A DNA stretch of 64,000 nucleotides from Streptomyces lienomycini (GTDB lineage Bacteria; Actinomycetota; Actinomycetes; Streptomycetales; Streptomycetaceae). Position 1 is the first letter of the stretch. The number at the start of each line of letters is the position of its first letter. Shown piece after piece: positions 36,694 to 52,768 of the stretch. The translations under genes were made by a program, and so were the position numbers. The notes under the pieces were generated by a model. It saw nothing but the letters and a program-made list of their open reading frames with translations, made no database searches and was not told the origin of the DNA. The stretch is from positions 3,410,001 to 3,474,000 of the forward strand of contig NZ_CP116257.1 of the NCBI RefSeq assembly GCF_027947595.1. The letters are read 5' to 3'.

Positions 36694-36723
36694 CCAATCC
36701 GGACCCGAGCCGGCTTCGGATTA
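36694..36723 (+). promoter_or_regulatory. Putative SigK promoter of the fasciclin gene
   Basis: CCAATCC (36694-36700), 16 bases, CGGATTA (36717-36723). The same elements with identical spacing lie before sigK (52739-52768) and before the lipid operon (45821-45849). It would start transcription near 36730 and leave a 5' leader of about 175 bases. The rest of the gene-free stretch 36588-36907 shows no other feature I can name. Confidence 0.78.
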
Positions 36724-36907
36724 CCCGTGTGAGCGAAGAACCGAGACCACGCCGACAGCGAACCGGCGGCTGACCCCGCAACCGGGTCGGCCGGCCTTCA
36801 CGTAACGGCGCCGCGTACTCGGCGGACCGCCGCACACCACCGCAGCTCTGCACCACGACACCGCTTCAACGCAGCCCTCAAGCTGCCCGTTTTCAGGGAG
36901 ATTCTCC

Positions 36908-37567
36908 ATGAACGCCCGCATCCGCCGCTCCGCCGTCGCCGTCGTCGCGGCCGCCGTCCTGCCCCTGTCCCTGGCCGCCTGCTCCGACGACGGCGACAGC
37001 GGCTCCTCGGACTCCGCCCAGGCCGCCTCCTCGGCGCCCGCGGCGAACGACGACAAGTCGGCCGACACCTCCGGCGGCATGGCGGACTCCGACGAGCCGT
37101 TCGGCCCGGCCTGTTCCACGGTGCCGAAGGAGGGCGCCGGTTCGTTCGACGGGATGGCCAAGGACCCGGTCGCCACGGCCGCCTCGAACAACCCGGCCCT
37201 GTCCACGCTCGTCTCCGCGGTCAAGAAGGCCGGACTGGTCGACACGCTCAACAACGCCGAGAACATCACGGTCTTCGCGCCGACCAACGACGCCTTCGCC
37301 AAGATCCCGAAGGCCGACCTGGACAAGGTCCTCAACGACAAGGCGATGCTCACCGACATCCTGACCTACCACGTCGTGGGCCAGAAGCTCGCCCCCAAGG
37401 ACCTGGAGAACGGCTCCTTCGACACCCTGCAGAAGTCGAAGCTGACCACCTCGGGCTCGGACGAGTCCTACAAGGTCAACGACTCCGCCGGCGTGGTCTG
37501 CGGCAACGTGAAGACCGCCAACGCCAACGTCTACATCATCGACACGGTCCTCATGCCGAAGAGCTGA
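36908..37567 (+). CDS. Fasciclin (FAS1) domain lipoprotein
   Basis: A 219-residue surface lipoprotein. The signal peptide ends in LPLSLAAC, a good lipobox, so the lipidated residue is Cys25. A Ser/Ala/Asp linker leads to one FAS1 domain (about 85-219): NNPALSTLVSAVKKAGLVDTL, ITVFAPTNDAFAKIP, ILTYHVVGQKL, NANVYIIDTVLMP. It is the counterpart of mycobacterial MPT70/MPT83, the classic SigK-dependent proteins. FAS1 domains mediate adhesion, and some bacterial ones bind small ligands. A SigK-like promoter lies upstream. Confidence 0.93.
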   Translation: MNARIRRSAVAVVAAAVLPLSLAACSDDGDSGSSDSAQAASSAPAANDDKSADTSGGMADSDEPFGPACSTVPKEGAGSFDGMAKDPVATAASNNPALSTLVSAVKKAGLVDTLNNAENITVFAPTNDAFAKIPKADLDKVLNDKAMLTDILTYHVVGQKLAPKDLENGSFDTLQKSKLTTSGSDESYKVNDSAGVVCGNVKTANANVYIIDTVLMPKS

Positions 37568-37639
37568 CACGCGGGCGGGCGGACACGTGGGCCGGGGACA
37601 GGTCGGGCAGAGGCCCGCCCCCGGCCCACGCGCCGACCC

Positions 37640-37815
37640 TGTGGTAGCTTGCGCAAGCCAGTCGAACCCACCTGGTGGGTCAGGGAATCCGGTGCGAATC
37701 CGGAACTGACGCGCAGCGGTGAGGGGGACGGGCGGAACACGGGCCACTGGCCGGCGTACGCCGGCCGGGAAGGCGTTCCGTCCGGTCGAACCCGAGTCCG
37801 AAGACCTGCTGGCAC
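37640..37815 (+). promoter_or_regulatory. Cobalamin riboswitch
   Basis: The leader holds the B12-element core: GGGAATCCGGTGCGAATCCG (37683-37702), then AACTGACGCGCAGCGGTGA, and the 3' closing element GAGTCCGAAGACCTGC (37794-37809). It precedes a three-gene ABC importer. Such riboswitches repress translation or transcription when adenosyl- or other cobalamins are plentiful. Confidence 0.93.
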
Positions 37816-37890
37816 CCGTGCCGCGTGCGGCGCGGGCCGCACCGTACGAACGGGCTTCGCGTACGAGCCCTCGACGCCAGAGGATCTTCC

Positions 37891-38967
37891 GTGCCCGCAG
37901 CGCGCCCCGGCGGTCTCCGCCGCCTCCTCCGCCCCCACCGCGCCGTCCGCGCCCCCGCCCTGCTGCTGTCCGCCGCCCTGCTGGCCTCCGGCTGCGGCGC
38001 CGGCGCGAGCACCGACGCCCCGGCCGCCCCGGCCGACGCCGCCGGTCGGCCACGCACCGTCAGTGACTGCGGGCACCAGGTGCGGGTCGCCGCGCCGCCC
38101 CGGCGGGCGGTCTCCCTCAACCAGGGCAGCACGGAGATCCTGCTCTCGCTCGGCCTCGCCGACCGCATGGCGGGCACCGCCACCTGGACCGACCCGGTCA
38201 TGAAGGGACTGGAGAAGGCGAACGCGGGCGTCCCCCGGCTCGCCGACGACATGCCGTCCTTCGAGACGGTCCTGGACGCGGAACCCGACCTCGTCACCGC
38301 CTCCTTCGCCTCCACCCTCGGCACCGGCGGCGTGGCCACCCGCGAACAGTTCACCGAACTCGGCGTACCGGCCTACCTGTCCCCGTCCGACTGCGCCGGC
38401 AAGGACAACAGCGGCGACGGCGACGGCGTCCGGGCCGAGCCCCTCACCATGGACACCGTCTACGGCGAAGTCCGCGACCTGGCCCGCCTCTTCGGCGTCG
38501 AACAGCGCGGCGAGAAGCTCGTCGCCGACCTGAGGTCAAGGGTCGACAAGGCGACATCCGGCATCGACGCCTCCGGCGTCACCCTCATGTACTGGTTCGC
38601 CAACTCCACCTCGCCCTACCTGGCGGGCTGCTGCGGTGCCCCGGGCATCATCACCCGCGCGGTCGGCGCCGAGAACGCCATGGACGACACCCACGAGGAG
38701 TGGCCGCAGACCGGCTGGGAGACCGTCGCCGACCGGAACCCAGACGTCCTGGTCCTCGGCGACCTCACCCGCAGGTCCCAGACCGCCGAGACGGCGGCGA
38801 AGAAGATCGAGTTCCTGGAGTCCAACCCCGTGACCAGGAACCTGACCGCCGTACGCGAGAAGCGCTACGTGCTGCTCAGCGGGCAGGCCATGAACCCCAC
38901 CATCCGTACCGTCGAGGGTGTGGAGCGGGTGGCGGCCGCGCTGCGCGCGTACGGGCTCACCAAGTGA
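37891..38967 (+). CDS. Cobalamin-type ABC importer substrate-binding lipoprotein
   Basis: A 358-residue BtuF/FhuD-type binding protein. A hydrophobic signal (ALLLSAALLASGC) ends in a lipobox-like sequence. The chain then shows PRRAVSLNQGSTEILLSLGLADRMAG, quoted for its family order, then FETVLDAEPDLV, WETVADRNPDVLVLGD and the C-terminal TVEGVERVAAALRAYG. The GTG at 37891 has AGAGGA nine bases upstream and lies just after a B12 riboswitch, so the substrate is most probably a corrinoid, with cobalt complexes as an alternative. The stop overlaps the permease start (GTGA). Confidence 0.9.
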   Translation: MPAARPGGLRRLLRPHRAVRAPALLLSAALLASGCGAGASTDAPAAPADAAGRPRTVSDCGHQVRVAAPPRRAVSLNQGSTEILLSLGLADRMAGTATWTDPVMKGLEKANAGVPRLADDMPSFETVLDAEPDLVTASFASTLGTGGVATREQFTELGVPAYLSPSDCAGKDNSGDGDGVRAEPLTMDTVYGEVRDLARLFGVEQRGEKLVADLRSRVDKATSGIDASGVTLMYWFANSTSPYLAGCCGAPGIITRAVGAENAMDDTHEEWPQTGWETVADRNPDVLVLGDLTRRSQTAETAAKKIEFLESNPVTRNLTAVREKRYVLLSGQAMNPTIRTVEGVERVAAALRAYGLTK

Positions 38968-40028
38968 CCTCCGCGGGCCGGGCGGCCCCCGGTTCCGGCA
39001 TACGCGCATCCCGCCGCCCCCACCTCGTGTGGGCGGCGGCCGGGATCGTCGCCCTGTGCGCCTCCCTGGCCGTCGCCGTCACCCTCGGCCCCGCCGACAT
39101 CGGCGTCGGCGACGTGTGGTCCGTGATCGCCGCCCACCTCGGCGCCGGCACCCCCGCCGCGGACGTGTCGCCGATCCGCGACGGCATCGTCTGGGACCTG
39201 CGGCTGCCCCGCACCCTCCTCGCGGCCGTGTGCGGTGCCGGGCTCGCGGTGTGCGGGGCCGTGCTCCAGTCCCTGCTGCGCAACCCGCTCGCGGACCCCT
39301 TCGTCCTCGGCGTCTCCTCCGGTGCCTCGACCGGCGCCGTCCTGGTCGTCGTGCTCGGCGTCGGCGGCGGCGCGCTGTCGGTCCCCGGCGGGGCGTTCAT
39401 CGGCGCGGTCTGCTCCTTCGCGCTGGTGATGCTGCTCAGCCACAGTCTCGGCGGCACCACGGACCGGGTGGTGCTCGCGGGCGTCGCGGCGATGCAGCTG
39501 TTCTCCGCGCTCACCTCGTTCGTGGTCATGACCGCCGCCGACGCCGAGACCACCCGCGGCGTGCTGTTCTGGCTGCTCGGCTCGCTCGGCGGCGCGGGCT
39601 GGAGCGACGTGTGGACCACCGCCGCGGTCCTCGTGCTGGTCCTCGCCGTGTGCCTCGGGTACGCCAGGACCCTGGACGCCTTCGCCTTCGGCCGGGACGC
39701 GGCGGCCACGCTCGGCGTCCAGGTGGCCCGTACCCGGCTGGTCCTGCTGTGCGCCACCGCCCTGCTCACCGCCGTCCTGGTCGCCTCGGCCGGTGCGATC
39801 GGCTTCGTCGGCCTGGTGCTGCCGCACGCGGTTCGGGCCCTCACCGGTCCCGGGCACGCCCGGCTGCTGCCGGTGTGCGCACTCGCCGGGGCGGTGTTCC
39901 TGGTGTGGGTCGACACCCTGGCCCGTACCGTCCTCGAACCGCAGGAGGTCCCGGTGGGCGTGGTGACCTCGCTGATCGGTGTCCCGGCCTTCGTCCTCGT
40001 CCTGTACCGCACCCGGAGGGCACGGTGA
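38964..40028 (+). CDS. FecCD-type ABC permease (BtuC-like)
   Basis: A 354-residue permease with about ten membrane helices. Family marks are WDLRLPRTLLAAVCGAGLAVCG, LLRNPLADPFVLGVSSGAS, and GFVGLVLPHAVR, the L-loop that meets the ATPase. It imports a corrinoid together with the adjacent binding protein and ATPase. The start is GTG overlapping the previous stop; its own stop overlaps the ATPase start. Confidence 0.93.
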   Translation: MTSAGRAAPGSGIRASRRPHLVWAAAGIVALCASLAVAVTLGPADIGVGDVWSVIAAHLGAGTPAADVSPIRDGIVWDLRLPRTLLAAVCGAGLAVCGAVLQSLLRNPLADPFVLGVSSGASTGAVLVVVLGVGGGALSVPGGAFIGAVCSFALVMLLSHSLGGTTDRVVLAGVAAMQLFSALTSFVVMTAADAETTRGVLFWLLGSLGGAGWSDVWTTAAVLVLVLAVCLGYARTLDAFAFGRDAAATLGVQVARTRLVLLCATALLTAVLVASAGAIGFVGLVLPHAVRALTGPGHARLLPVCALAGAVFLVWVDTLARTVLEPQEVPVGVVTSLIGVPAFVLVLYRTRRAR

Positions 40029-40798
40029 CACTGAGCGCCGAGCGGGTCTCCCGCTCCGCCGGCGGGCGGCTCATCCTGGACGGCGTCGACCTGAGCCCCC
40101 GTACCGGCGCCATGACGGGCCTGCTCGGACCCAACGGCTCCGGCAAGTCCACCCTGCTGCGGCTGCTCGCCGGCGTGCTCGCCCCGGCCTCGGGCGTCGT
40201 CACCCTCGACGGACGCCCCCTGGACCGGGTGGGCCGCCGGGACGTCGCCCGGCGCGTGGCCGTGGTCGAGCAGCAGACGGACACCCAGGTGGAACTGACC
40301 GTCCGCGACGTCGTCCGGCTGGGCCGCATCCCGCACCGCCGCGCCTGGGCACCGGCGTCGGCGGCCGACGAGGAGGCGGTGACGGACGCCCTGGAGCGCA
40401 CCGCCCTGGCCGGTCGGGCCGACCGGCTGTGGCACACGCTCTCCGGGGGCGAACGCCAGCGCGTCCAGATCGCCCGCGCCCTCGCCCAGGAGCCGCGCGA
40501 ACTCCTGCTCGACGAACCGACCAACCACCTCGACATCCAGCACCAGCTCGACGTACTGGCCCTCGTCGCCGCCCTGCCCGTCACCAGCGTGGTCGCCCTG
40601 CACGACCTCAACCTGGCGGCGATGTACTGCGACCACCTCGTCGTCCTCTCGGAGGGCCGGGTCGTGGCCCGCGGCGCACCGGCGGACGTCCTGACGGCGC
40701 ACCTGGTGGCGAAGGTCTACCGGGTACACGCCGAGATCACCCGCACCGCCCCGGCCGACCGCCCCCACGTGCGCTTCCTGGGCACCCTGCCGGGCTAG
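40025..40798 (+). CDS. ABC ATPase (BtuD/FecE type)
   Basis: A 257-residue ATPase. Walker A is [19 protein letters not shown], the signature LSGGERQRVQIARALAQEP, Walker [16 protein letters not shown], and the H-loop VVALHDLNLAAMYC. It powers the preceding permease; the three genes overlap by four bases each and share the B12 riboswitch. Confidence 0.94.
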   Translation: MTLSAERVSRSAGGRLILDGVDLSPRTGAMTGLLGPNGSGKSTLLRLLAGVLAPASGVVTLDGRPLDRVGRRDVARRVAVVEQQTDTQVELTVRDVVRLGRIPHRRAWAPASAADEEAVTDALERTALAGRADRLWHTLSGGERQRVQIARALAQEPRELLLDEPTNHLDIQHQLDVLALVAALPVTSVVALHDLNLAAMYCDHLVVLSEGRVVARGAPADVLTAHLVAKVYRVHAEITRTAPADRPHVRFLGTLPG

Positions 40799-40839
40799 GG
40801 GCCGCGCGTCGGCCGAGGACGCGGCACCCCGGGAGGAGG

Positions 40840-41279
40840 TCAGTCGTCCGTCAGGCCGGCGGCGAGCGCGGCCCCCAGCTCCCAGCAGGCATCCAGGTCG
40901 GCCCTGCCCGGTTCACCGGCCACGGTCACCGCGGGCGCCGCACGCTGCCAGCCGAGACCGGTCGTGACGGACTCGATGCCGCGTACCGCGCCCGTGGTGT
41001 CGCTGCCCCCGTGCACGTAGTAGCCGAAGGGGCGGCCACGGGTGTCGTCCAGGCACGGGTAGTAGACCTGGTCGAAGAAGTGCTTGAGCGCTCCGGACAT
41101 GTACCCCAGATTGGCCGGGGTGCCCAGCAGGTAGCCGTCGGCCTCCAGCACGTCGACGGCCGTGGCCGCCAGCGCCGCCCGCCGGACCACCCGCACCCCC
41201 TCGATCTCGGGCGCGGTCGCCCCGGACACGACGGACTCCAGCATCGCCCGGCAGTTCGGCGACGGCGTGTGATGCACGA

Positions 41280-41295
<16 letters not shown>
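40840..41295 (-). CDS. Flavodoxin-like NAD(P)H-dependent FMN reductase family protein
   Basis: A 151-residue flavodoxin-fold protein: LLIVHHTPSPNCRAMLESV (phosphate-binding loop), EADGYLLGTPANLGYMSGALKHFFD (FMN-site loop), then GRPFGYYVHGGSDTTGAVRGIE. This resembles WrbA/NADPH-dependent FMN reductase proteins. The substrate is unknown. The GTG at 41295 lies within the 3' end of the ABC-F gene (16-base overlap), so it is probably translated from the ABC-F transcript. Confidence 0.82.
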
Positions 41296-43025
<1,730 letters not shown>

Positions 43026-43105
43026 GGGAGTCCGTTCAGCGTGGTCGGTGGACGGCCCGCGGGGCACTGCGCCTCGGACGCGGGCCGGGTCGGCACGCCG
43101 GCGGC

Positions 43106-44740
43106 TCACACCTCGGGCGCCCCCGTCTCCGTCAGCTCCCCGCCGGCCAGCCGCAGCCAGCGGCCGACGCCGATCCCGCGCAGGAACCTCCGGTCGTGAC
43201 TGACGACGACGAAGGCCCCCCGGTAGGAGTTCAGGGCGCTCTCCAACTGGCCCACGCCGACCAGGTCGAGGTTGTTCGTCGGCTCGTCCAGGAGCAGCAG
43301 GTGCGGGGCGGGTTCCGCGCACAGGACGCAGGCCAGCGTGGCCCGAAGCCGCTCGCCGCCGGAGAGCAGGCCGACCGGCAGGTGGGCGCGGGCGCCCCGG
43401 AAGAGGAAGCGGGCGAGGAGGTTCATCCGCTCGGCCTCCGGCCGGTCCGGGGCGTAGGCGGCGAAGTTCTCGGCGACGGTGCGCTCGTCGTCCAGCAGGT
43501 CCAACCGCTGGGAGAGGTACGCGACGCGTCCGTCGGCCCGCCTGATCCCGCCGCCCTCCGGCTCCAGGCCGCCGTGGACCAGACGCAGCAGCGTGCTCTT
43601 GCCCGCGCCGTTGGCCCCGGTCAGCGCGATCCGCTCGGGGCCCCGGACCGTCAGGTCGACGCCCTGCGCCCCGAACAGGTCCCGGTCGCCGAGCCGGATC
43701 CGCAGCCCCTCGCCGAGGAAGAGGGTGCGGCCGGCGGGGACGCGGGTCTCCGGCAGGTCCAGGGCGATGCGCTCCTCCTCGCGCAGCGACCGCTCCGCCT
43801 CGTCGAGCCGTGCCCTGGCCTCACCGACCCGGTTGGCGTGGGTCTGGCCCGCCCGGCCGGCGGACTCCTGGGCCCCGCGCTTCATGTTGCCCGCGAAGAT
43901 CCGGGGGAGCCCGGCGCTCTTGAGGTTGCGGGCGGCGTTGCTCGCGCGGCGGTCGGCGCGCTCGCGGGCCTGCTGCAGCTCCCGCTTCTCCCGCTTCAGC
44001 TCCTGCTCGGCGTTGCGGACGTTCTTCTCGGCGACTTCCCGCTCGGAGCGGACGGCCTCCTCGTACTCGGTGAAGTTGCCGCCGTGGAAGCGCAGTTCAC
44101 CGCGATCGAGTTCGGCGATGCGCTCCATGCGGTCGAGCAGCTCCCGGTCGTGGCTGACCAGCAGCAGGCAGCCGTGGTAGTCGCCGAGCACGTCGTGGAG
44201 TCTGCCGCGGGCGTCCACGTCGAGGTTGTTGGTGGGCTCGTCGAGCAGCAGCACGTCGGGCCGCTTCAGCAGCTGGGCGGCGAGTCCGAGGGAGACGACC
44301 TGGCCGCCGCTGAGCGTGCGCAGCCGGCGGTCCAGGTCGAGACCGCCCAGGCCCAGGCGGTCGAGCTGGGCGCGGGTGCGCTCCTCGATGTCCCAGTCGT
44401 CGCCGATGGCGGTGAAGTGCTCCTCGGCCACGTCCCCCAACTCCACGGCGTCGATGGCCCGGATCACGGCGTCGACGCCGAGGACCTCGGCCACGGTCAG
44501 CCCGCCCGTCAGGGGGAGGGCCTGGGGCAGATGGCCGAGGACACCGGAGACGGACACCGAGCCGGCGGTGGGCCGCAGCTCGCCGGCGATCAGCTTGAGC
44601 AGGGTGGACTTGCCTGCACCGTTGGGGGCCACGAGGCCCGTACGGCCGGCTCCCACGGTGAACGACAGGTTCTCGAAGACGGGGGTGTCGTCGGGCCAGG
44701 AGAAGGACAGGTCGGAACAGCGGACGGCGGCGTCGGACAT
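43106..44740 (-). CDS. ABC-F ATPase, leader-peptide controlled
   Basis: A 544-residue ABC-F protein. Site 1: [52 protein letters not shown]. Site 2: [51 protein letters not shown]. The long linker is charged and helical ([20 protein letters not shown]). Relatives in actinomycetes give resistance to macrolides, lincosamides or pleuromutilin-type drugs, and some are housekeeping; the drug cannot be read from sequence. The ATG at 44740 follows GAGG. A nine-residue leader ORF and hairpins lie upstream, suggesting induction by ribosome stalling. The other ABC-F gene starts 80 bases downstream and may be co-expressed. Confidence 0.88.
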
Positions 44741-44820
44741 GGAGACGACCTCGTGGCGGTGAAGGGCAGGGCACAGACCTCTGCCCGGGAAGCGAGACAG
44801 GGAAAAGGGCACGACGAGGA

Positions 44821-44858
44821 GGCCACTGCGACGGCGCTCGAACGCGCCCGCTGCGGCC
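44821..44858 (-). promoter_or_regulatory. Possible attenuator hairpin before the ABC-F gene
   Basis: On the minus strand GGCCGCAGCGGGCGC and GCGCCGTCGCAGTGGCC can fold into an interrupted stem closed by GTTCGA. It lies between the leader peptide and the ABC-F start, and CCCTTTTCCC follows 14 bases after. This would suit a conditional terminator; the fold has internal loops and is unproven. Confidence 0.4.
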
Positions 44859-44866
44859 TACCGGGA

Positions 44867-44881
44867 CCGGGTCTCACCCGG
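44867..44881 (-). promoter_or_regulatory. Hairpin spanning the leader peptide stop codon
   Basis: CCGGGT-GAG-ACCCGG on the minus strand is a perfect six-base stem with the leader stop TGA at the loop. A ribosome stalled on the leader would keep it open, as expected for an attenuation control element. Confidence 0.5.
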
Positions 44882-44903
44882 AGATGTCGTCGTCACCCAC
44901 CAT
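44874..44903 (-). CDS. Leader peptide MVGDDDISG upstream of the ABC-F gene
   Basis: ATG 44903 to TGA 44874 encodes nine residues, MVGDDDISG. GAGGAG lies eight bases before the ATG, one of the best ribosome sites in the region. An in-frame GTG at 44924 would add seven residues but lacks such a site. The ABC-F start is 133 bases downstream, across two potential hairpins. Short leaders of this kind sense drug-stalled ribosomes before several ABC-F resistance genes; that role here is inferred. Confidence 0.55.
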   Translation of the reverse strand: MVGDDDISG

Positions 44904-44943
44904 GTCCGCGACTCCTCGCTGCACGATCAACGTCTCTCCCAGA

Positions 44944-45705
44944 CTAGCAGCCGGGCTCCCGCACCGGACCCGGCGCCGGGTCGGACGAGGCACCCCGAGC
45001 CGGGCCGAGAACCGGCGGCTCGGCCGCCTCCAAGGCCCGGGCGACCAGCTCGGAGGGCGCCGCCTCCGGGGAGAGCAGGTGGGCGACCGCCGCCGTCGCG
45101 GTGCGGTGCCACTGAGCGTGGTGGCGGAGCATGGCGTGGTCGCCGCGGTCCAGCAGCACCATCCCCGCCTGGGCCCCGGCGGCGCGGGCCCGCAAGACGT
45201 ACGCGGCCGACTCGGCGGGATCGGTGACGCGGTCGCGGGTGCCGTGCAGGACGAACAGGTCCCGGCCTCGCAGCTGGGCGACGGGCTCGCCCGGAGGGCA
45301 CCAGGGCGCGAGGGCGACCACACCCCGGACCGGGGCGGCGTCCGCCGCGCGCAGGGCCGCCCGGCCGCCCATGGAGTGGCCCAGCAGGACCACCGGCACG
45401 TCACCGACCAGGGCCCGCAACCCGGCGAGCGCCCGCCGGGTGTCGGCCAGTGGCTCCGCGGCGGCACCGTTCCAGCCGCGGCTGCGGTAGCGCACCCGGG
45501 CCAGGAGCACGTCGTCGCGGCCGGTGCCCGCCTCCAGCGCCCGCAGGAAGGGGCGCATCCGCAGGGCCGCGAGCTGCCAGGGACGCGCGGCGCTGCGGCT
45601 CTCCGCCCGCCCGCCGTGCAGTACCAGCACGGCCGCGCGGGTCCGCACCGGACGGCGCCGCACCTCCAGCGCGCCACCGGTCGACGGATCCTGCTCCACA
45701 CCCAT
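44944..45705 (-). CDS. Alpha/beta hydrolase
   Basis: A 253-residue alpha/beta-hydrolase. The nucleophile elbow is LLGHSMGGRAALR (Ser), the oxyanion region VLHGGRAESRS, the acid is likely the Asp in LHGTRDRVTDPAE, and the histidine is in DRGDHAMLRHH. The substrate is unknown; the subgroup resembles dienelactone-hydrolase-like and thioesterase-like proteins. It is divergent from the SigK-type promoter at 45821 and ends 40 bases before the ABC-F leader peptide, on the same strand. Confidence 0.85.
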   Translation of the reverse strand: MGVEQDPSTGGALEVRRRPVRTRAAVLVLHGGRAESRSAARPWQLAALRMRPFLRALEAGTGRDDVLLARVRYRSRGWNGAAAEPLADTRRALAGLRALVGDVPVVLLGHSMGGRAALRAADAAPVRGVVALAPWCPPGEPVAQLRGRDLFVLHGTRDRVTDPAESAAYVLRARAAGAQAGMVLLDRGDHAMLRHHAQWHRTATAAVAHLLSPEAAPSELVARALEAAEPPVLGPARGASSDPAPGPVREPGC

Positions 45706-45820
45706 GTCGGTCCCTTTCCCTTCCCGTTTCCCTCATCTTCCCCGCCCCTGCCCGCCCCAGATGATCCGTTGCCGGGCCGCCCCCGGACTGGTGGTCGTCC
45801 GAGCGGTCCGCAACCTGCGG

Positions 45821-45849
45821 CAATCCGCCCGCCCCGCGGCTCCGGATTA
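45821..45849 (+). promoter_or_regulatory. Putative SigK promoter of the lipid-modification operon
   Basis: CAATCC (45821-45826), 16 bases, CGGATTA (45843-45849). The -10 element and spacing are identical to the fasciclin promoter at 36694-36723, and the -35 differs only in its first base (GCAATCC for CCAATCC). Transcription would start near 45856, about 36 bases before the first gene. Confidence 0.75.
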
Positions 45850-45891
45850 CTCACGCAAGCGTTGATCACAGTGGGGTGGAGGAGCAGCGAA

Positions 45892-47172
45892 ATGCCGCGA
45901 GTGTCAGGGGAGGCCGTGCGCCGCAGTGCCGTCGTCGGCAGCGGAGTGGCGGGTCTGACCGCCGCCCACGTACTGGGCCGCGAGCACCGCGTCACCCTCT
46001 ACGAGGCCGACGACCGCCTCGGCGGGCACGCCCACACCCACGACCTGACCGCGTCCGACGGCCGCGTCCACCGGGTCGACTCGGGATTCATCGTGCACAA
46101 CCGCCGCACCTACCCGAACCTGTTGCGCCTCTTCGACGAACTCGGGGTGGCCACGCAGGAGTCGGAGATGAGCATGTCCGTACGGTGCGAGGGCTGCGGT
46201 CTCGAGTACGCCGGTGCCCGCGGCCCCGCCGGACTGCTCGCCCGCCCGCGCAACGCCCTGCACGGCCCCTACCTGCGGATGCTCGCCCAGGTGCCCCGGT
46301 TCCACCGCGCCGCCCGCGAGCTGCTCACCGACGGCGCCGACCAGTCCCTGACCCTCGGCGAGTTCCTGGACCGCGAGGGCTTCTCGCCGTACTTCCGGGC
46401 CCACTTCACGACGCCCGTGGTCTCCGCGGTCTGGTCCTGCGACGCCGCCACCGCGCTGCGCTACCCGGCCGCCTACCTGTTCCGCTTCCTGCACCACCAC
46501 GGCATGCTCGCCGTCGGCGGCTCCCCGGTGTGGCGCACGGTCACCGGCGGCTCCCGCTCCTACGTCGACCGGATCGCCGAGCGGCTGCCCGACGTGCGCA
46601 CCGCCGCCCCGGTCCGCTCGGTGACCCGGCACGCGGACGGCGTGGACATCACCGCGGCCGACGGCACCACCGACACCTACGACCACCTCGTCGTCGCCGT
46701 CCACCCCGACCAGGCACTGGCGCTGCTGGCCGACCCGACGCCCGACGAGAAGGAGGTCCTCGGCGCCTTCCGGTACTCCCGCAACGCCACCCTTCTGCAC
46801 ACCGACACCGCCCTGCTGCCCCGCTCGCGCGGCGCCCGGTCCTCCTGGAACTACCTCATGCCGGCCTGCGACGCGGGCGCCGACCGGGTCCGCGTCAGCT
46901 ACGACATGAACCGGCTGCAGCGCCTCGACGCCGCCGACACCTACGTCGTCACGCTCGGCGGCGAGGACCGTGTCGACCCCGGCCGGGTGCTGGCCCGCAT
47001 GACCTACGAACACCCCGTCTACACACCCGAGTCGGTCGCCGCCCAGCGCCGCCTGCCCGGCCTGCGCACCCCGGTCACGGCCTACGCCGGCGCCTACCAC
47101 GGCTGGGGGTTCCACGAGGACGGCTGCCGCTCGGGGGTGGAGGCCGCCGCGGCGCTCGGAGTGACCTGGTGA
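45892..47172 (+). CDS. FAD-dependent amine-oxidase-family protein (lipid operon)
   Basis: A 426-residue NAD(P)/FAD-binding protein. The dinucleotide site is AVVGSGVAGLTAAHVLG, followed by YEADDRLGGHAHTHD and VDSGFIVHNRRTYPNLLRL, marks of the amine-oxidase/phytoene-desaturase-like family found beside CFA-synthase genes. The C-terminal FAD motif reads YAGAYHGWGFHEDGCRSGVEAA. In other bacteria the amine oxidase/DUF1365/CFA-like set is part of an ECF-sigma stress response and modifies unsaturated acyl chains; the exact reaction here is inferred. The ATG at 45892 has GGAGG 12 bases upstream. It is the first of five genes overlapping by four bases each. Confidence 0.88.
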   Translation: MPRVSGEAVRRSAVVGSGVAGLTAAHVLGREHRVTLYEADDRLGGHAHTHDLTASDGRVHRVDSGFIVHNRRTYPNLLRLFDELGVATQESEMSMSVRCEGCGLEYAGARGPAGLLARPRNALHGPYLRMLAQVPRFHRAARELLTDGADQSLTLGEFLDREGFSPYFRAHFTTPVVSAVWSCDAATALRYPAAYLFRFLHHHGMLAVGGSPVWRTVTGGSRSYVDRIAERLPDVRTAAPVRSVTRHADGVDITAADGTTDTYDHLVVAVHPDQALALLADPTPDEKEVLGAFRYSRNATLLHTDTALLPRSRGARSSWNYLMPACDAGADRVRVSYDMNRLQRLDAADTYVVTLGGEDRVDPGRVLARMTYEHPVYTPESVAAQRRLPGLRTPVTAYAGAYHGWGFHEDGCRSGVEAAAALGVTW

Positions 47173-47912
47173 CCCCGGACCCGACGGCACGCCCCGGCCT
47201 GTACCCCTGCGAGATCGGGCACATACGCCTCGACCCGATCCGGTACGCCATGCGCCACCGGACCTACATGTGGCTCGTCGACCTCGACCACCTGCCCCAA
47301 CTGCCGCGTCCACTGCGCCCGCTGGCCGGCTTCCGCGCCCGCGACCACTTCACCGGCGACGCCCCCTCACCGCGCGCGGGCCTTGACCGCTTCCTCGCCT
47401 CCCACGGCGTCGACCTGGAGGGCGGCCGGGTGCTGATGCTCACGCACGCCCGCGTCCTCGGACACGTCTTCAACCCGCTGACCCTGTACTGGTGCCACGG
47501 CCCCGACGGCACCCCGCGCCGCGTGGTCGCCGAGGTGCACAACACCTACGGCGAGCGTCACGCGTACCTGCTGGACCCCGACGAGGCGGGTGTCGCGCAC
47601 GTCGACAAGGAGTTCTACGTCTCGCCGTTCAACCCCGTCGACGGCGCCTACCGCATGCGGCTGCCGCTGCCCGCCGACCACCTCGACCTGACCGTACGCC
47701 TGGACCGCCCCGGCGCCCGGCCGTTCACCGCGACCGTCCGCGGCACCCGGCGGGAGGCGACCCCCGCCGCCCTCCTGCGGCTGGCGCTGCGGCACCCCCT
47801 GTCGACCCTCGCGGTGTCGGCCGGCATCCGCAGGCACGGCATCCGCCTCTACCTGCGCGGCCTGCCCGTCCAGCCGCGCCCGAGTCACCGCACCACGGAG
47901 AAGGCATCATGA
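47169..47912 (+). CDS. DUF1365 family protein
   Basis: A 247-residue DUF1365 protein: GLYPCEIGHIRLDPIRYAMRH, MWLVDLDHLPQLPRP, LTHARVLGHVFNPLTLYWCH, EVHNTYGERHAYLL, FYVSPFNPVDGAYRM. No function is established for the family, which almost always lies between an amine-oxidase-type flavoprotein and a CFA-synthase-like methyltransferase, as here. Conserved His and Asn residues could form a catalytic or metal site. GTG start overlapping the previous stop; stop overlapped by the next ATG. Confidence 0.9.
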   Translation: MTPDPTARPGLYPCEIGHIRLDPIRYAMRHRTYMWLVDLDHLPQLPRPLRPLAGFRARDHFTGDAPSPRAGLDRFLASHGVDLEGGRVLMLTHARVLGHVFNPLTLYWCHGPDGTPRRVVAEVHNTYGERHAYLLDPDEAGVAHVDKEFYVSPFNPVDGAYRMRLPLPADHLDLTVRLDRPGARPFTATVRGTRREATPAALLRLALRHPLSTLAVSAGIRRHGIRLYLRGLPVQPRPSHRTTEKAS

Positions 47913-49195
47913 CCGCAACCCACCCACGCCCCGCCGCCGCGCCCCCGGTCACGGAAGGCCGCGGCACCCCGGTCGACCCGCACCGCTGGCCCGACGTCGC
48001 CGCACCGCCCCGCACCTCACGGGCCCGCCGGGCCATCGCCGCGGCCGTCGTGGGCCGCGCCCTGCGCCGACTGCCGCTGCGGGTACGGTTCGCCGACGGC
48101 GCCACCGTGGGCCTCGGCGGTCCGCTGGTGGAGGTCCACGACCCCGACGCCTTCCACGGGCGGATCGGCGCCCAGGGCCTCATCGGCTTCGGCGAGTCCT
48201 ACATGGCCGGCGAGTGGGACGCCCCGGACCTGGTCGGCGCCCTCACCGTGCTCGCCGCCCACGCGGCCGACCTGGTCCCCGCCCCGCTCCAACGGCTGCG
48301 CGGCCTGTGGCACCAGCGCCGGCCCGCCGCCCGCCGCAACACGCCCGAGGGCGCCCGGTCCAACATCAGCAGCCACTACGACCTGTCCAACGACCTGTTC
48401 GCCCTCTTCCTCGACGACACCCTCAGCTACTCCTCCGCCGTCTTCCCCGCCTTCCCGGCCCGCCGCGAGTCCCTCGCCGCCGCCCAGCAGCGCAAGATCG
48501 ACCGGCTGCTCGACCTCGCCGAGGTCCGCGACGGCACCCGCCTCCTGGAGATCGGCACCGGCTGGGGCGAACTCGCCCTGCGCGCCGCCGCCCGCGGCGC
48601 CCACGTCACCTCCCTCACCCTCTCCCGCGAACAGCGCGACCGCGCCCTCGAACGCGCCCGCGAGGCGGGCCTCGCCGACCGCGTCCGGGTCGAACTGCGC
48701 GACTACCGCGAGGAGAAGGGCACCTACGACGCGCTCGTCAGCGTCGAGATGATCGAGGCCGTCGGCGCCGAGTTCTGGCCGGTGTACTTCCGCACCCTCG
48801 ACGAGCGCCTCGCCCCCGGCGGCCGGGCCGCCCTCCAGGCCATCACCATGCCGCACGACCGGATGCTCGCCGCCCGCCACACCCACACCTGGATCCAGAA
48901 GTACGTCTTCCCCGGCGGCCTGATCCCCTCCACCGACGCGATAGAGGACACGGTCCGCGACCACACCGGTCTGCGCGTCGCCCGCCGCGACGACTACGGA
49001 GCGCACTACGCCGAGACGCTGCGGCTGTGGCGCGAGCGGTTCACCGAGCGCGCCGCCGAGGTGGACGCCCTCGGCTTCGACGAGACCTTCCGGCGCCTGT
49101 GGACCTTCTACCTCGCCTACTCCGAGGCCGGCTTCCGCGCCGCCTACCTCGACGTCCAGCAGTACCTGTTCACCAAGGAGGGCCCCGCCCGATGA
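47909..49195 (+). CDS. Cyclopropane-fatty-acyl-phospholipid-synthase-like methyltransferase 1
   Basis: A 428-residue SAM-dependent enzyme of the CFA synthase/mycolic-methyltransferase family. An N-terminal lipid-binding-like domain (residues 35-140) includes GESYMAGEWDAPDLVGAL. The core follows: ISSHYDLSNDLFALFLDDTLSYSSAVF, the SAM motif LLEIGTGWGELALRAA, VSVEMIEAVGAEFW (active-site loop), WIQKYVFPGGLIPS, and the tail FYLAYSEAGFRAAYLDVQQYLF. In E. coli Cfa the bicarbonate ligands include the Glu of EMIEAVG and the His-Tyr pair, and these are kept. It should add a methylene or methyl to an unsaturated chain. Overlaps both neighbours. Confidence 0.9.
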   Translation: MTATHPRPAAAPPVTEGRGTPVDPHRWPDVAAPPRTSRARRAIAAAVVGRALRRLPLRVRFADGATVGLGGPLVEVHDPDAFHGRIGAQGLIGFGESYMAGEWDAPDLVGALTVLAAHAADLVPAPLQRLRGLWHQRRPAARRNTPEGARSNISSHYDLSNDLFALFLDDTLSYSSAVFPAFPARRESLAAAQQRKIDRLLDLAEVRDGTRLLEIGTGWGELALRAAARGAHVTSLTLSREQRDRALERAREAGLADRVRVELRDYREEKGTYDALVSVEMIEAVGAEFWPVYFRTLDERLAPGGRAALQAITMPHDRMLAARHTHTWIQKYVFPGGLIPSTDAIEDTVRDHTGLRVARRDDYGAHYAETLRLWRERFTERAAEVDALGFDETFRRLWTFYLAYSEAGFRAAYLDVQQYLFTKEGPAR

Positions 49196-50502
49196 GCACC
49201 GCCCGCACCGCCAGGACCGGCGCCGCCCACCGGCTCGCCGCGCTCGTCGAGGACGCGCTCGGCGGCCCGCTCCCCGTCCGGCTGCGCGCCTGGGACGGCT
49301 CCGAGACCGGCCCCGCCGACGGCCCCGTGGTCGTCGTCCGCTCCCGGCGGGCGCTGCGCCGCCTGCTGTGGCAGCCCGGCGAACTGGGCCTGGCGCAGGC
49401 CTACGTCACCGGCGAACTGGACGTCGACGGCGACCTGGCCGACGGCCTGCGCCGGATGTGGGCGGCCACCCGCGAACGCCGGCTGCGTCCGCCCCGCCTC
49501 TCCCTCGCCGACCGGGCCCGCGCGGCGGGCACCGCCGTCCGCCTCGGCGCCCTCGGCCCGCGCCCCGCGACGCCCGCCTCGCAGGCCCGGCTGCGCGGCG
49601 GCCTGCACACCAGGTCCCGCGACCGCGCCGCCATCAGCCACCACTACGACCTCTCCAACGACTTCTACCGCCTCCTCCTCGACGAGACCATGGCCTACTC
49701 GTGCGGGGTGTGGGCGGACGAGTACACCGACGCGGACGCCGCCGACGCCCAGCGCGCCAAGCTGGAGCTGATCTGCCGCAAGCTCGGCCTCACCGTCGGC
49801 TCCCGCCTCCTGGACATCGGCTGCGGCTGGGGTTCGCTCACCCTCTACGCGGCCGAACGGCACAAGGCGAAGGTCACCGCCGTCACGCTCGCCGAGGAGC
49901 AGGCGGCGCACGTCCGCGAACAGGTGCGGGAGCGCGGCCTGGAGGACCGGGTCGAGGTCGTCTGCCAGGACTACCGCGACATCACCAGCGGGGGCTACGA
50001 CGCCGTCTCCACCATCGAGATGGGCGAGCACGTCGGCGACGCCGAGTACCCGGCCTTCACCGCCGCCCTGCACCGCATGGTCCGCCCCGGGGGACGCGTC
50101 CTGGTGCAGCAGATGTCCCGGGGCCGCAATGCCCCCGGCGGCGGCGCCTTCATCGAGGCGTACATCGCCCCGGACATGCACATGCGGCCCCTCGGCGAGA
50201 CGGTCCAGCTCCTGGAGGACGCCGGTCTCGAAGTGCGCCACGTCGAGTCGCTGCGCGAGCACTACGTCCGCACGGTCACGGCATGGGAACGCACCCTGGA
50301 GGAGCGCTGGGACGAGTTCGTCGCGCTGGTCGGGAAGGAGACCGCGCGGGTGTGGCGGCTCTACCTGGTGGGCGGCGCGCTCGCCTTCGAGCAGCGGCGC
50401 ATGGGCGTCGACCAGATCCTGAGCGTCCGGCCCACCGCCGAGGGCGTCAGCGGCATGCCCGCGACGCCGGGGGAGTGGTACGAGCGGCTGGACCGCCCGT
50501 GA
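49192..50502 (+). CDS. Cyclopropane-fatty-acyl-phospholipid-synthase-like methyltransferase 2
   Basis: A 436-residue paralogue of the preceding enzyme but clearly divergent. Core motifs are AISHHYDLSNDFYRLLLDETMAYSCGVW, LLDIGCGWGSLTLYAA, and a changed active-site loop, TIEMGEHVGDAEYP, with VGD where VGA/VGE-FW is usual. The end reads VWRLYLVGGALAFEQRRMGVDQIL. The tandem pair suggests either two successive steps on one chain or a heteromeric enzyme. ATG overlaps the preceding stop; stop overlaps the DUF1295 start. Confidence 0.9.
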   Translation: MSTARTARTGAAHRLAALVEDALGGPLPVRLRAWDGSETGPADGPVVVVRSRRALRRLLWQPGELGLAQAYVTGELDVDGDLADGLRRMWAATRERRLRPPRLSLADRARAAGTAVRLGALGPRPATPASQARLRGGLHTRSRDRAAISHHYDLSNDFYRLLLDETMAYSCGVWADEYTDADAADAQRAKLELICRKLGLTVGSRLLDIGCGWGSLTLYAAERHKAKVTAVTLAEEQAAHVREQVRERGLEDRVEVVCQDYRDITSGGYDAVSTIEMGEHVGDAEYPAFTAALHRMVRPGGRVLVQQMSRGRNAPGGGAFIEAYIAPDMHMRPLGETVQLLEDAGLEVRHVESLREHYVRTVTAWERTLEERWDEFVALVGKETARVWRLYLVGGALAFEQRRMGVDQILSVRPTAEGVSGMPATPGEWYERLDRP

Positions 50503-51314
50503 GCGGCTTCCCGTGGGGCGCGTTCGCCGTGGGCCTCGGCTGGGCCGCGGCGGCCGCGCTCGCCGTCATGCTGGCCACCTTCGCCGTCGCCCTGCGCAAG
50601 GGCGTCCACCGGGTCGTGGACGTGGCCTGGGGCCTCGGCTTCGCCGCCGTCGCCGTCGTGACCTGCGCGGTCGCGGCGGCGAGGGGGGAGGGCGATGCCG
50701 GGCGCCAGGCCCTGGTCGGGGCCCTCACCGTCGTATGGGGAGTGCGGCTGGCCGCGCACATCGCGCGGCGCGGCCGGGGCCACGGCGAGGACCCGCGCTA
50801 CGACGCCATGCTCGCCAAGGCGCGCGGCAACCGGAACCTCTACGCCCTGCGCATGGTGTACCTGCTCCAGGGCGCCCTGGTCTGGCTGGTGTCGCTGCCG
50901 GTGCAGGCCGCCTCGTACGGGCCGGGGCCCCTGTCGGTCCTGGCCTGGGCCGGGGCGGCCGTGTGGGCGGTGGGGCTGGCCTTCGAGGCCGTCGGGGACG
51001 CCCAGCTGGCCCGGTTCAAGGCGGACCCGGCCAACCGGGGCCGCATCATGGACCGCGGCCTGTGGAGCTGGACCCGGCACCCCAACTACTTCGGCGACCT
51101 CTGCGTCTGGTGGGGCCTGTTCCTGATCGCCTGCGACGCGGGCCCGGCCGCCGCCGCGGTGTCCGTCGTCGCCCCGCTGGTGATGACGTACCTGCTGATC
51201 GGCGGCAGCGGGAAGCGACTCCTCGAGCGGCACATGGCGGACCGGCCGGGGTGGACCGAGTACGCGGCGCGCACCAGTGGCTTCTTCCCGCGTCCGCCGC
51301 GCCGGTCCGCGTAG
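50499..51314 (+). CDS. DUF1295 membrane protein (steroid 5-alpha-reductase-like)
   Basis: A 271-residue membrane protein with about seven helices. The C-terminal signature GLWSWTRHPNYFGDLCVWWGLF, then RPGWTEYAARTSGFFP, is that of DUF1295, related to steroid 5-alpha-reductases and isoprenylcysteine methyltransferases, which reduce or modify hydrophobic substrates using NADPH or SAM. It could reduce a double bond in the lipid made by the upstream enzymes; this is inference. Last gene of the operon, followed by a strong two-way terminator. Confidence 0.9.
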   Translation: MSGFPWGAFAVGLGWAAAAALAVMLATFAVALRKGVHRVVDVAWGLGFAAVAVVTCAVAAARGEGDAGRQALVGALTVVWGVRLAAHIARRGRGHGEDPRYDAMLAKARGNRNLYALRMVYLLQGALVWLVSLPVQAASYGPGPLSVLAWAGAAVWAVGLAFEAVGDAQLARFKADPANRGRIMDRGLWSWTRHPNYFGDLCVWWGLFLIACDAGPAAAAVSVVAPLVMTYLLIGGSGKRLLERHMADRPGWTEYAARTSGFFPRPPRRSA

Positions 51315-51328
51315 GACGGGACCCGGGA

Positions 51329-51356
51329 GGGGGTGAGGGCCGCGGCCCTCACCCCC
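51329..51356. terminator. Bidirectional terminator between lipid operon and sigK-rskA
   Basis: GGGGGTGAGGGCC (51329-51341) and GGCCCTCACCCCC (51344-51356) form a perfect 13-base stem between the convergent DUF1295 and rskA genes. Confidence 0.88.
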
Positions 51357-51357
51357 T

Positions 51358-52109
51358 TCAGGCCGGCATGCTCATCAGCGCGATCGGGTCCGAGGTCGGC
51401 TGCTCCGACCCGCCGGACGGCTCGACCGTGATGCCCACACCGGCCGCACCGTCGACGGCGCCCTCCATCAGGACCGCCTGGCTGGTGCTGCCGGGGTCCA
51501 TCAGGCCCGCCGAGCGCATCGTGCCGTGGTCGTCGAACCAGAGCTGGTACACCTTGCCCCGCGGCGGTTCGGCCATGCCCGAGGCGAGGAAGACCGCCCG
51601 GTCCTGGCCCTCGGAGACGACCAGCGTGCCGCTCGCCCCGTCGGCCAGTCGCGCCGTGCGGGACTCGGCGTCCGGCGCGGCCAGCACTCCGGCGAGGGTC
51701 TCGGCCCGCCGCTCGGCCTGCGCGGCCCGCTCCCCGGCGTCCTGCGCGCGGTCGTACTGCCACGCCGCCGTGCCGCCCAGACCCGCCGCGGCGGCCAGGC
51801 AGGCGGCCAGCGCCCAGCGGGCCAGACCGCGCCCGCGGGCACGACGCGGCGCGTCTTCCCGGCCGTGCCGCCGCCCGGCGGAACCTGGCGCACGGTGGTG
51901 ATGCGGTGCAGTACCCGGTCCTTGAGCACCGGTCCGGGTACGACCGTCGCGGCCAGCCCCAGCCGGGCCGTCGCGGCGGCGAACTCCCGGGTCTCCTGCC
52001 CGCAGGTGGCGCAGTCCGCCAGGTGGCGTTCGAAGGCGTCCCGCTCGTCGTCGGGCAGGGCGTGCAGGGCGTAGGCGCCCGTCAGGCTGTGCAGGTCCTC
52101 GGTGCGCAT
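51358..52109 (-). pseudogene. rskA: Anti-sigma-K factor RskA, interrupted by an apparent frameshift
   Basis: The gene should encode about 250 residues. From ATG 52109 the first frame gives a complete N-terminal sigma-binding domain: LHSLTGAYALHALPDDERDA, HLADCATCGQETREF with the H-x3-C-x2-C zinc motif, and VLKDRVLHRI. It then changes frame within 51800-51890. The second frame continues with a membrane helix (ARWALAACLAAAAGLGGTAAW) and the outer RskA domain (GTLVVSEGQDRAVFLASG, GKVYQLWFDDHGTMRSAGLM), ending at 51358. The total length, 752 bases, is one short of a whole number of codons. If real, the product loses its membrane anchor and sensor. The ATG shares one base with the sigK stop. A sequencing error is the main alternative. 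Confidence 0.8.
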
Positions 52110-52693
52110 CACGCGCTCACCCCCAGGCAGTCGCGGAGCCGGATGAGACCGTCGCGCAGTCGCGTCTTGACCGTGCCGAGCGGCAGCGCGAGCGCCTCGG
52201 CCACCTGCCGGTAGGTCAGGCCGCGGTAGTAGGCGAGGGTCACGGACTGGCGCTGGATCTCGGTCAGGGTGCGCAGACAGCGCCGCACCTGCTCCCGCTC
52301 CAGGCGGGACTCGACCTGTTCGGTCACCTCGTCGTACTCGGGCGTGCGGTCGAGCAGGGCGGCCTTGTGGTCGCGGGCCGCGGCGGCCTCCACCGACCGC
52401 ACCCGGTCCACGGCCCGCCGGTGGGCCAGGGTCAGGATCCAGTTCACCACCGTGCCGCGCTCGGGCCGGTAGCGGGGCGCCGTGCGCCACACCTCGACCA
52501 GCACCTCCTGCGCGACCTCCTCCGACTGGGCCTGGTCGCGCAGCACCGCCCGGGCGACCCCGAGCACGGACCCCGCCACCGCGTCGTACACGGCGGCGAA
52601 GGAGTCCTGATCGCCCAGGGCCACCTCACGGATCAGCTGCTGCAGATCGGGTTGGGACGATGGATTTCTGCCGATGTGTACGGCTTCCTTCAC
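52109..52693 (-). CDS. sigK: ECF RNA polymerase sigma factor SigK
   Basis: A 194-residue group 4 sigma factor. Region 2 shows FAAVYDAVAGSVLGVARAVL and EEVAQEVLVEVWRTAPRYRP, followed by VVNWILTLAHRRAVDRVRS; region 4 reads QRQSVTLAYYRGLTYRQVAEAL then PLGTVKTRLRDGLIRLRD. The paired RskA-type anti-sigma gene and a fasciclin target identify the SigK (ECF19) group. The GTG start at 52693 has GGAG nine bases upstream. A promoter of the same type as at the fasciclin and lipid operons precedes it, so it probably activates its own gene. Confidence 0.92.
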   Translation of the reverse strand: MKEAVHIGRNPSSQPDLQQLIREVALGDQDSFAAVYDAVAGSVLGVARAVLRDQAQSEEVAQEVLVEVWRTAPRYRPERGTVVNWILTLAHRRAVDRVRSVEAAAARDHKAALLDRTPEYDEVTEQVESRLEREQVRRCLRTLTEIQRQSVTLAYYRGLTYRQVAEALALPLGTVKTRLRDGLIRLRDCLGVSA

Positions 52694-52738
52694 GACGGTT
52701 GCTCCAAAAGAATGTGCGACGGCGGGGAGGTCCCCGCG

Positions 52739-52768
52739 TAATACGAGGCAGCGCCCCCCGCGGATTGG
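52739..52768 (-). promoter_or_regulatory. Putative autoregulated SigK promoter
   Basis: On the minus strand CCAATCC (52768-52762), 16 bases, CGTATTA (52745-52739). The -35 and spacing are identical to the fasciclin promoter, and the -10 differs at one position. The predicted start near 52732 leaves a 40-base leader to sigK. Confidence 0.8.

Follow-up and report, generated by a model that had tools for sequence, protein, structure and literature searches.

Candidate SigK promoters in Streptomyces lienomycini, their putative target genes and the variation of the -10 box among relatives

The window, i.e. the whole analyzed stretch of 64,000 nucleotides of Streptomyces lienomycini DNA (contig NZ_CP116257.1, positions 3,410,001 to 3,474,000), contains three copies of a promoter-like motif, located upstream of the gene pair sigK-rskA, of a gene for a fasciclin lipoprotein and of an operon for lipid-modifying enzymes. 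It is very probable that these sites are the promoters of one regulon governed by SigK, an extracytoplasmic function (ECF) sigma factor of the ECF18/19 type. This interpretation, already put forward in an original prediction made from the window sequence, is supported by the SigK subfamily model, by the co-occurrence of sites and SigK among genomes and by the concordance of the -10 boxes. In the proposed mechanism, an envelope signal would change the membrane anti-sigma factor RskA, and SigK would then bind RNA polymerase. Helped by a C-N-G element in the spacer, it would read the -35 box CCAATCC and, 16 bases downstream, the -10 box CGGAT(T)A, and would transcribe sigK-rskA, the lipid operon, the genes of the fasciclin lipoprotein and of a molybdoenzyme and, as a possible addition in this strain, a chaplin gene. 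We infer that SigK initiates transcription at each of the sites. SigK is known mainly from tuberculosis bacteria and its signal and role are poorly understood; the sites described here narrow its putative targets to a few named genes, in a genus that is easy to work with and mostly harmless.

SigK-type sites in the window, the genome and related strains

The three boxes are present at exactly the positions predicted for them, all with a spacing of 16 bases, and the exact motif CAATCC-N16-CGKATTA is restricted to these copies in the window, which agrees with the earlier remark that no further pair had been seen. When up to two mismatches were allowed, six matches were detected in the window, compared to a mean of 0.21 in shuffled sequences, and six were reached in none of 100 shuffles. 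Besides the exact sites, the matches comprise two reverse-strand readings of near-palindromic sites and the positions 45762-45790 (two mismatches). A search of the whole genome (7.86 Mb, single contig) with at most one mismatch yielded five matches, all of them exact and three lying in the window. The same five sites were recovered without mismatch by the looser -10 box CGKATNM, for which the control gave no match. All statements on the whole genome are based on pattern searches of this kind (exact or with at most one mismatch). While the three predicted loci were confirmed, the two additional sites, upstream of a molybdoenzyme and a chaplin gene, had been missed. Four of the sites have CGGAT as their -10 box, whereas the one of sigK has CGTAT. 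From the end of the -10 box to the start codon there are 184 nucleotides for the fasciclin gene (ATG), 42 for the amine oxidase gene (ATG), 45 for sigK (GTG), five for the molybdoenzyme gene (GTG) and 74 for the chaplin gene.

In a GC-rich genome, chance alone can produce a motif twice or three times, and the reversed-pattern control of the genomic search with at most one mismatch did return one match. Nevertheless, a fortuitous agreement of the three sites is refuted at the sequence level by the shuffles, by the conservation over 80 loci and by a reversed control of 295 genomes (0 versus 72 sites, see below), so that its probability is practically nil.

The boxes were searched for in 80 Streptomyces sigK loci, the best 80 matches listed, with 79-98% identity and with some genomes contributing two loci. 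A box with at most one mismatch precedes sigK in 71 of them. In total, 170 such sites were found, of which 71 belong to sigK, 38 (in 37 loci) to the molybdoenzyme gene, 21 to the amine oxidase gene, ten to the fasciclin gene and one to a chaplin gene, the remaining 29 having no labelled gene. As the flanks are unequally long, and some could not hold the operon, the tallies of targets other than sigK are no presence counts; the labels were assigned on the site's own strand only and orientation is thus no part of the result. In the whole genomes of eight close relatives (G118, G148, G195, G200, G215, G246, G277 and G419), the pattern CAATCC-N16-CGKATNM occurs 30 times. It precedes sigK and the molybdoenzyme gene in all eight, the fasciclin gene in seven (where the -10 box is CGGATTC), the amine oxidase gene in three and a chaplin gene in one, and three of the 30 sites (L206, L209, L211) have none of these genes nearby.

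Among 295 Streptomyces genomes, 39 contain a total of 72 exact CCAATCC-N16-CGKATTA sites. An exact site was found in 34 of the 38 genomes possessing a close SigK (E no higher than 3e-98, a cut-off picked after the list was seen) but only in five of the 257 others. As sigK itself accounts for 31 of the 72 sites, this co-occurrence is partly trivial. The 41 sites away from sigK, on the other hand, were detected in 27 of the 38 genomes with a close SigK and in five of the 257 others. In a class-wide sample, the exact box occurred in five of 394 genomes, all of them Streptomyces.

The sites could also be read by a different ECF sigma factor having SigK as just one of its targets, and a first look at the genome indeed gave 67 ECF-like candidates; moreover, an ECF-like gene lies divergent from the molybdoenzyme gene in some relatives. 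However, the presence of the sites follows close homologues of SigK and the -10 base follows SigK relatedness, while SigK has a single match at E 1e-40 among the genes of this genome. Another ECF factor is therefore very unlikely to be the regulator.

Besides the match of the reversed control, several observations weigh against a SigK regulon in the form proposed. No labelled target lies behind the 29 sites of the 80-locus scan mentioned above, and in the close relatives the amine oxidase site was met, at the given stringency, in just three of eight genomes. An exact site is missing from four genomes that have a close SigK and present in five that do not, where it lies before the molybdoenzyme gene (G152), before the amine oxidase gene (G164) or near an rskA homologue (G253, G262, G276). 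Of 158 distinct SigK homologues, 48 do not have CCAATCC-N16-CGNA in the 280 nucleotides upstream, including 12 with 80-90% identity; some of the boxless homologues have GCAATCC or one mismatch. None of 20 chaplin loci from the eight close relatives contains a site of the CGGAT or CGAA type, and the break in the rskA gene of the window (see below) could be a sequencing error.

The -10 box, the spacer and the divergence of SigK

The 158 homologues, the SigK of the window included, fall into groups with different -10 boxes. CCAATCC-N16-CGNA was found within 280 nucleotides upstream of 110 of them. Homologues with at least 80% identity (n=84) have CGGA in 70 cases and CGTAT in two, 12 being without a box. 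Between 70 and 80% identity (n=23), CGAA occurs in 18 cases, CGCAT in one and no box in four, between 55 and 70% (n=35) CGAA in 19 and no box in 16, and below 55% (n=16) a box was found in none. Among the 16 distinct homologues with at least 90% identity, again including the window, 15 are preceded by CGGAT and that of the window by CGTAT. In other genera, SigK homologues possessing a box mostly have CCAATCC-N16-CGAA, and many are without such a form. The CGAA box of the more distant SigK proteins was not found in this genome and is not treated as defining for the SigK-RskA regulon. In a family (f4) which, from gene order alone, we take for Mycobacteriaceae, the gene for DUF1365 or the amine oxidase is preceded by a CCATCC-like box and CGAAT in six of 12 loci (L182, L183, L184 and L190, L191 with a spacing of 17 bases, and L185 with TCATCC), while in the loci L186-L189, L192 and L193 no box could be assigned to either gene.

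Within a locus the promoters agree. For 62 pairs consisting of the sigK site and the site of another target, the third base of the -10 box was G/G in 58, A/A in three and T/G in one; A/G did not occur. A second set of 20 genomes was chosen for distant SigK proteins; it partly overlaps the first, and the sigK box of several genomes had been seen beforehand. Here, all 35 pairs were A/A, with the amine oxidase (16), molybdoenzyme (14), fasciclin (4) or DUF1295 gene (1) as partner; locus L261 has one unlabelled site and L264 only the sigK site. This concordance suggests that the -10 boxes of the regulon were rewritten together.

A tree of the 117 SigK proteins with at least 57% identity and a box present places the 70 G rows in a single branch (97/99), whose 77 rows also include four A rows, two T rows and one C row. 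For label A, three changes are needed, at least one of which is forced by well-supported branches, and a single change sufficed in 4% of 200 bootstrap trees. For label G, four changes are needed with at least two being forced; the T row of the window stands among the G rows. Misplacement of long branches may account for the four A rows within the G branch. A single switch of the -10 box, combined with such misplacement, is therefore possible, and a few switches are possible as well; the promoters followed in either case. The SigK positions that separate the -10 groups include 76, 81, 83 and 101. Positions 81 and 83 are presumably, judging from other ECF structures, close to the loop by which the -10 base is recognized. 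This covariation is a lead, inseparable from shared ancestry. The concordant promoter pairs of both -10 types together with the candidate residues provide a natural series for studying the joint change of specificity in a sigma factor and its promoters.

The conserved part of the promoter extends into the spacer. In a tally of sites picked by their two boxes only, 159 were of the CGKAT type; of these, 143 have C at spacer position 11 and 155 have G at position 13. The corresponding numbers are 66 and 70 for the Streptomyces CGAA sites (n=72), 13 and 17 for CGAA sites in other genera (n=19) and four and five for the f4 family (n=5), all these sites being linked by descent and the numbers thus not independent. 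The C-N-G motif may represent a third conserved promoter element.

The same sites are informative on the question whether they are the operator of a dimeric transcription factor, a question raised by the near inverted repeat of CAATCCG and CGGATTA. The halves of the sites in this clade come close to a palindrome, and the reverse strand of two of the sites matches the pattern with two mismatches. However, the symmetry is gone in the CGAA group, in which the -35 box, the spacing and the targets stay, and it is also gone in the sigK site of the window (CGTATTA). At the position mirroring the first C of CAATCC, the 159 sites have A (103), C (54) or T (2), but never the G required by symmetry. Likewise, the C preceding CAATCC in 153 of the 159 sites mirrors a position occupied by C in 143 sites and by G in three. 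The operator hypothesis was rejected as extremely improbable.

In a SigK lineage within Streptomyces, CGGAT might have replaced CGAA as the -10 box that is read, by one switch or at most a few, the promoters being rewritten together, the -35 box, the spacing and the C-N-G of the spacer being kept and SigK showing matching changes near the region 2.3 loop (e.g. at positions 81 and 83), the regulon being a redox or photo-oxidative envelope response which makes a modified membrane lipid. This combined scenario is tentative and, as a whole, rather doubtful.

Putative target genes and comparison with known systems

The molybdoenzyme comprises 533 amino acids beginning with GTG and contains a molybdopterin oxidoreductase domain of the sulfite oxidase superfamily (PF00174). 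It passed none of the equivalog cut-offs for SoxC (117 of 420 bits), SorA (114 of 600) and SorT (90 of 570), and its N-terminus, judged by eye, is membrane-spanning. Due to the position of the GTG five nucleotides behind the -10 box, its transcript is probably leaderless. In loci of other families (L144, L153, L155, L156, L158, L198), the genes for the molybdoenzyme, the fasciclin protein, SigK and RskA are located side by side, and in L199 this cassette is followed by the genes for the amine oxidase, the DUF1365 protein, two CFA proteins and the DUF1295 protein. Since loci scattered in the S. lienomycini genome are neighbours elsewhere, the molybdoenzyme site is backed independently of the motif, and the enzyme is a candidate for a conserved SigK target.

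At several loci (L022, L025, L040, L216 and others), the molybdoenzyme gene is divergent from a gene which by eye is ECF-like and which has its own SigK-type box. The box is situated on the opposite strand about 36 bases from the molybdoenzyme site, and the encoded protein has 25% identity to SigK. These boxes account for some of the 29 unlabelled sites and suggest a possible sigma cascade.

A site upstream of a chaplin gene also occurs in L080 and L230, and a chaplin gene adjoins sigK in L178 and L179. As a general target of SigK the chaplin was dropped, given the single site among the eight close relatives and its absence from their 20 chaplin loci. It would be the weakest of the targets.

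The regulon resembles that of mycobacteria, where the control of fasciclin genes and of a lipid locus by SigK is already known; hence, the kind of system is not new. The lipid set at the sigK locus of Mycobacterium tuberculosis we take to consist of amine oxidase, DUF1365, CFA and DUF1295 genes. For M. bovis, an excerpt of PMC10540498 lists at this locus Mb0457c and Mb0456c (of unknown function), UfaA1, Mb0453c (unknown), SigK and RskA, and for M. tuberculosis, PMC7509140 describes sigK as autoregulated, with the Rv0449c promoter as the route. The tie between SigK and a lipid operon, which the original prediction had proposed, is thus supported for Streptomyces but is not new in kind, a mycobacterial counterpart being in print. 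As far as these sources go, both systems (in mycobacteria mpt70/mpt83/dipZ and Rv0449c to rskA) have in common the SigK subfamily, RskA, fasciclin targets and lipid-enzyme genes at the sigK locus. In contrast to the mycobacterial arrangement, the Streptomyces lipid operon converges on sigK rather than leading into it, contains two CFA genes and has the -10 box CGGAT, and the set is extended by the molybdoenzyme and the chaplin. The literature search, which covered the papers on the mycobacterial SigK regulon in part, revealed no description of this Streptomyces regulon. The coordinated change of the -10 box, the C-N-G element and the molybdoenzyme target appear to be new, as far as can be judged from sequence. 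The protein named SigK in Streptomyces coelicolor (SCO6520) shares the name alone, being, according to an excerpt of PMC9205884, a SigB homologue of group 3 and no ECF factor.

For the lipid operon, a second comparison is with the ChrR response of Rhodobacter, which is known here from excerpts of PMC7380195. UfaO has the DUF1365 domain and UfaM is a methylase, while for UfaD, a desaturase, an NAD-FAD-binding domain is predicted; when expressed together, the three suffice for the formation of a furan fatty acid in Rhodobacter without chromosomal copies. Furan fatty acid builds up in cells lacking chrR, in which the genes of the singlet oxygen response are raised (PMC7380195). Judged by domains, features that the two systems may share are the desaturase (NAD-FAD) and DUF1365 genes in one operon, an S-adenosylmethionine-dependent fatty acyl methylase and control by an anti-sigma factor (PMC7380195). 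The sigma and anti-sigma families differ from ChrR/RpoE (ECF11), and the likeness to UfaD, UfaO and UfaM is one of domains only. The product of the Streptomyces operon might be a methylated or furan fatty acid. An ECF factor governing a molybdoenzyme of the sulfite oxidase superfamily has a parallel in the sulfite response of Sinorhizobium, in which RpoE1/RpoE4 (ECF26) act on SorT (excerpt of PMC3511301), but ECF group and partner genes are different there, and the Streptomyces enzyme is far below the SorT, SorA and SoxC cut-offs.

As to the signal, the fasciclin genes of M. kansasii are light-induced (PMC9861118), and the soil actinobacterium Act20 has less RskA under ultraviolet light (PMC8965627). 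Together with the Rhodobacter ufa genes, these reports suggest a photo-oxidative or redox signal at the envelope, and stress of this kind is our best guess. The gene set, which links a pathway resembling that of furan fatty acids with a molybdoenzyme and surface proteins, makes the function testable.

The genes of the window

The gene identities given in the original prediction were upheld by Pfam (sigma-70 regions 2 and 4, RskA_N, RskA_C, fasciclin, amine oxidase, DUF1365, two CMAS and DUF1295 domains), and the lipid operon and sigK-rskA are convergent, as had been proposed (Table 1). The sigma factor scored 285.2 bits with the subfamily model (cut-off 226) and is 99% identical to the SigK of Streptomyces coelicoflavus. 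Its translation contains two cysteines, within RRCLRTL and LRDCLG; an excerpt of PMC7509140 names the cysteine residues 133 and 183 of SigK.

Table 1. Positions of SigK-type sites and of the associated genes (window coordinates unless stated otherwise)
Feature	Position	Strand	Basis and remarks
SigK-type promoter of sigK-rskA	52739..52768	-	CCAATCC-N16-CGTATTA, pattern search
SigK-type promoter of the fasciclin gene	36694..36723	+	CCAATCC-N16-CGGATTA, pattern search
SigK-type promoter of the lipid operon	45821..45849	+	CAATCC-N16-CGGATTA, preceded by G, as originally given
SigK-type site before the molybdoenzyme gene	contig 3543496-3543524 (L006:8497-8525)	+	pattern search, outside the window
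SigK-type site before the chaplin gene	contig 4089130-4089158 (L007:8131-8159)	-	pattern search, outside the window
sigK, ECF sigma factor, 194 amino acids, SigK subfamily	52112..52693	-	Pfam, NCBIfam NF007228
rskA, anti-SigK gene, broken	51358..52111	-	RskA_N (PF22618) and RskA_C (PF10099) in different frames
Fasciclin-domain lipoprotein (MPT70/MPT83-like)	36908..37567	+	PF02469; lipoprotein judged by eye
FAD amine oxidase-like protein	45892..47172	+	PF01593
DUF1365 protein (domain of UfaO)	47169..47912	+	PF07103
CFA/CMAS methyltransferase 1	47909..49195	+	PF02353
CFA/CMAS methyltransferase 2	49192..50502	+	PF02353
DUF1295 membrane protein	50499..51314	+	PF06966

Both genes of the predicted sigK-rskA pair were confirmed; what had been overlooked is that rskA is split over two frames. 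In 79 of the 80 relatives rskA is a single open frame, the remaining locus (L063) lying at a contig edge. Compared to five of five aligned relatives, the gene of the window has one base fewer near 51.8 kb. Further non-triplet gaps in the stretch 45892-52693 are compensated nearby or lie around the junction of operon and rskA near 51.3 kb, the one exception being a gap relative to L015 right where the stretch begins. If not due to a sequencing error, the frameshift would leave the regulon deregulated in this strain. Excerpts of PMC7509140 report that natural RskA mutations in M. bovis and M. orygis raise the SigK regulon, and also that the N-terminal part of RskA can inhibit by itself, so that the effect of the frameshift is uncertain.

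In G206 (L123 / L134), a SigK homologue with 87% identity has no CCAATCC box upstream, with CFA and DUF1295 genes being convergent; a loss of autoregulation is possible there. Elsewhere in the window, a cobalamin riboswitch (RF00174, 94.4 bits) was detected at 37642-37827 on the plus strand before an operon which by eye resembles a transport operon for a binding protein, a permease and an ATPase. On the minus strand, two adjoining frames at 41280-44812 read, by eye, like twin-ATPase proteins of the ABC-F type.

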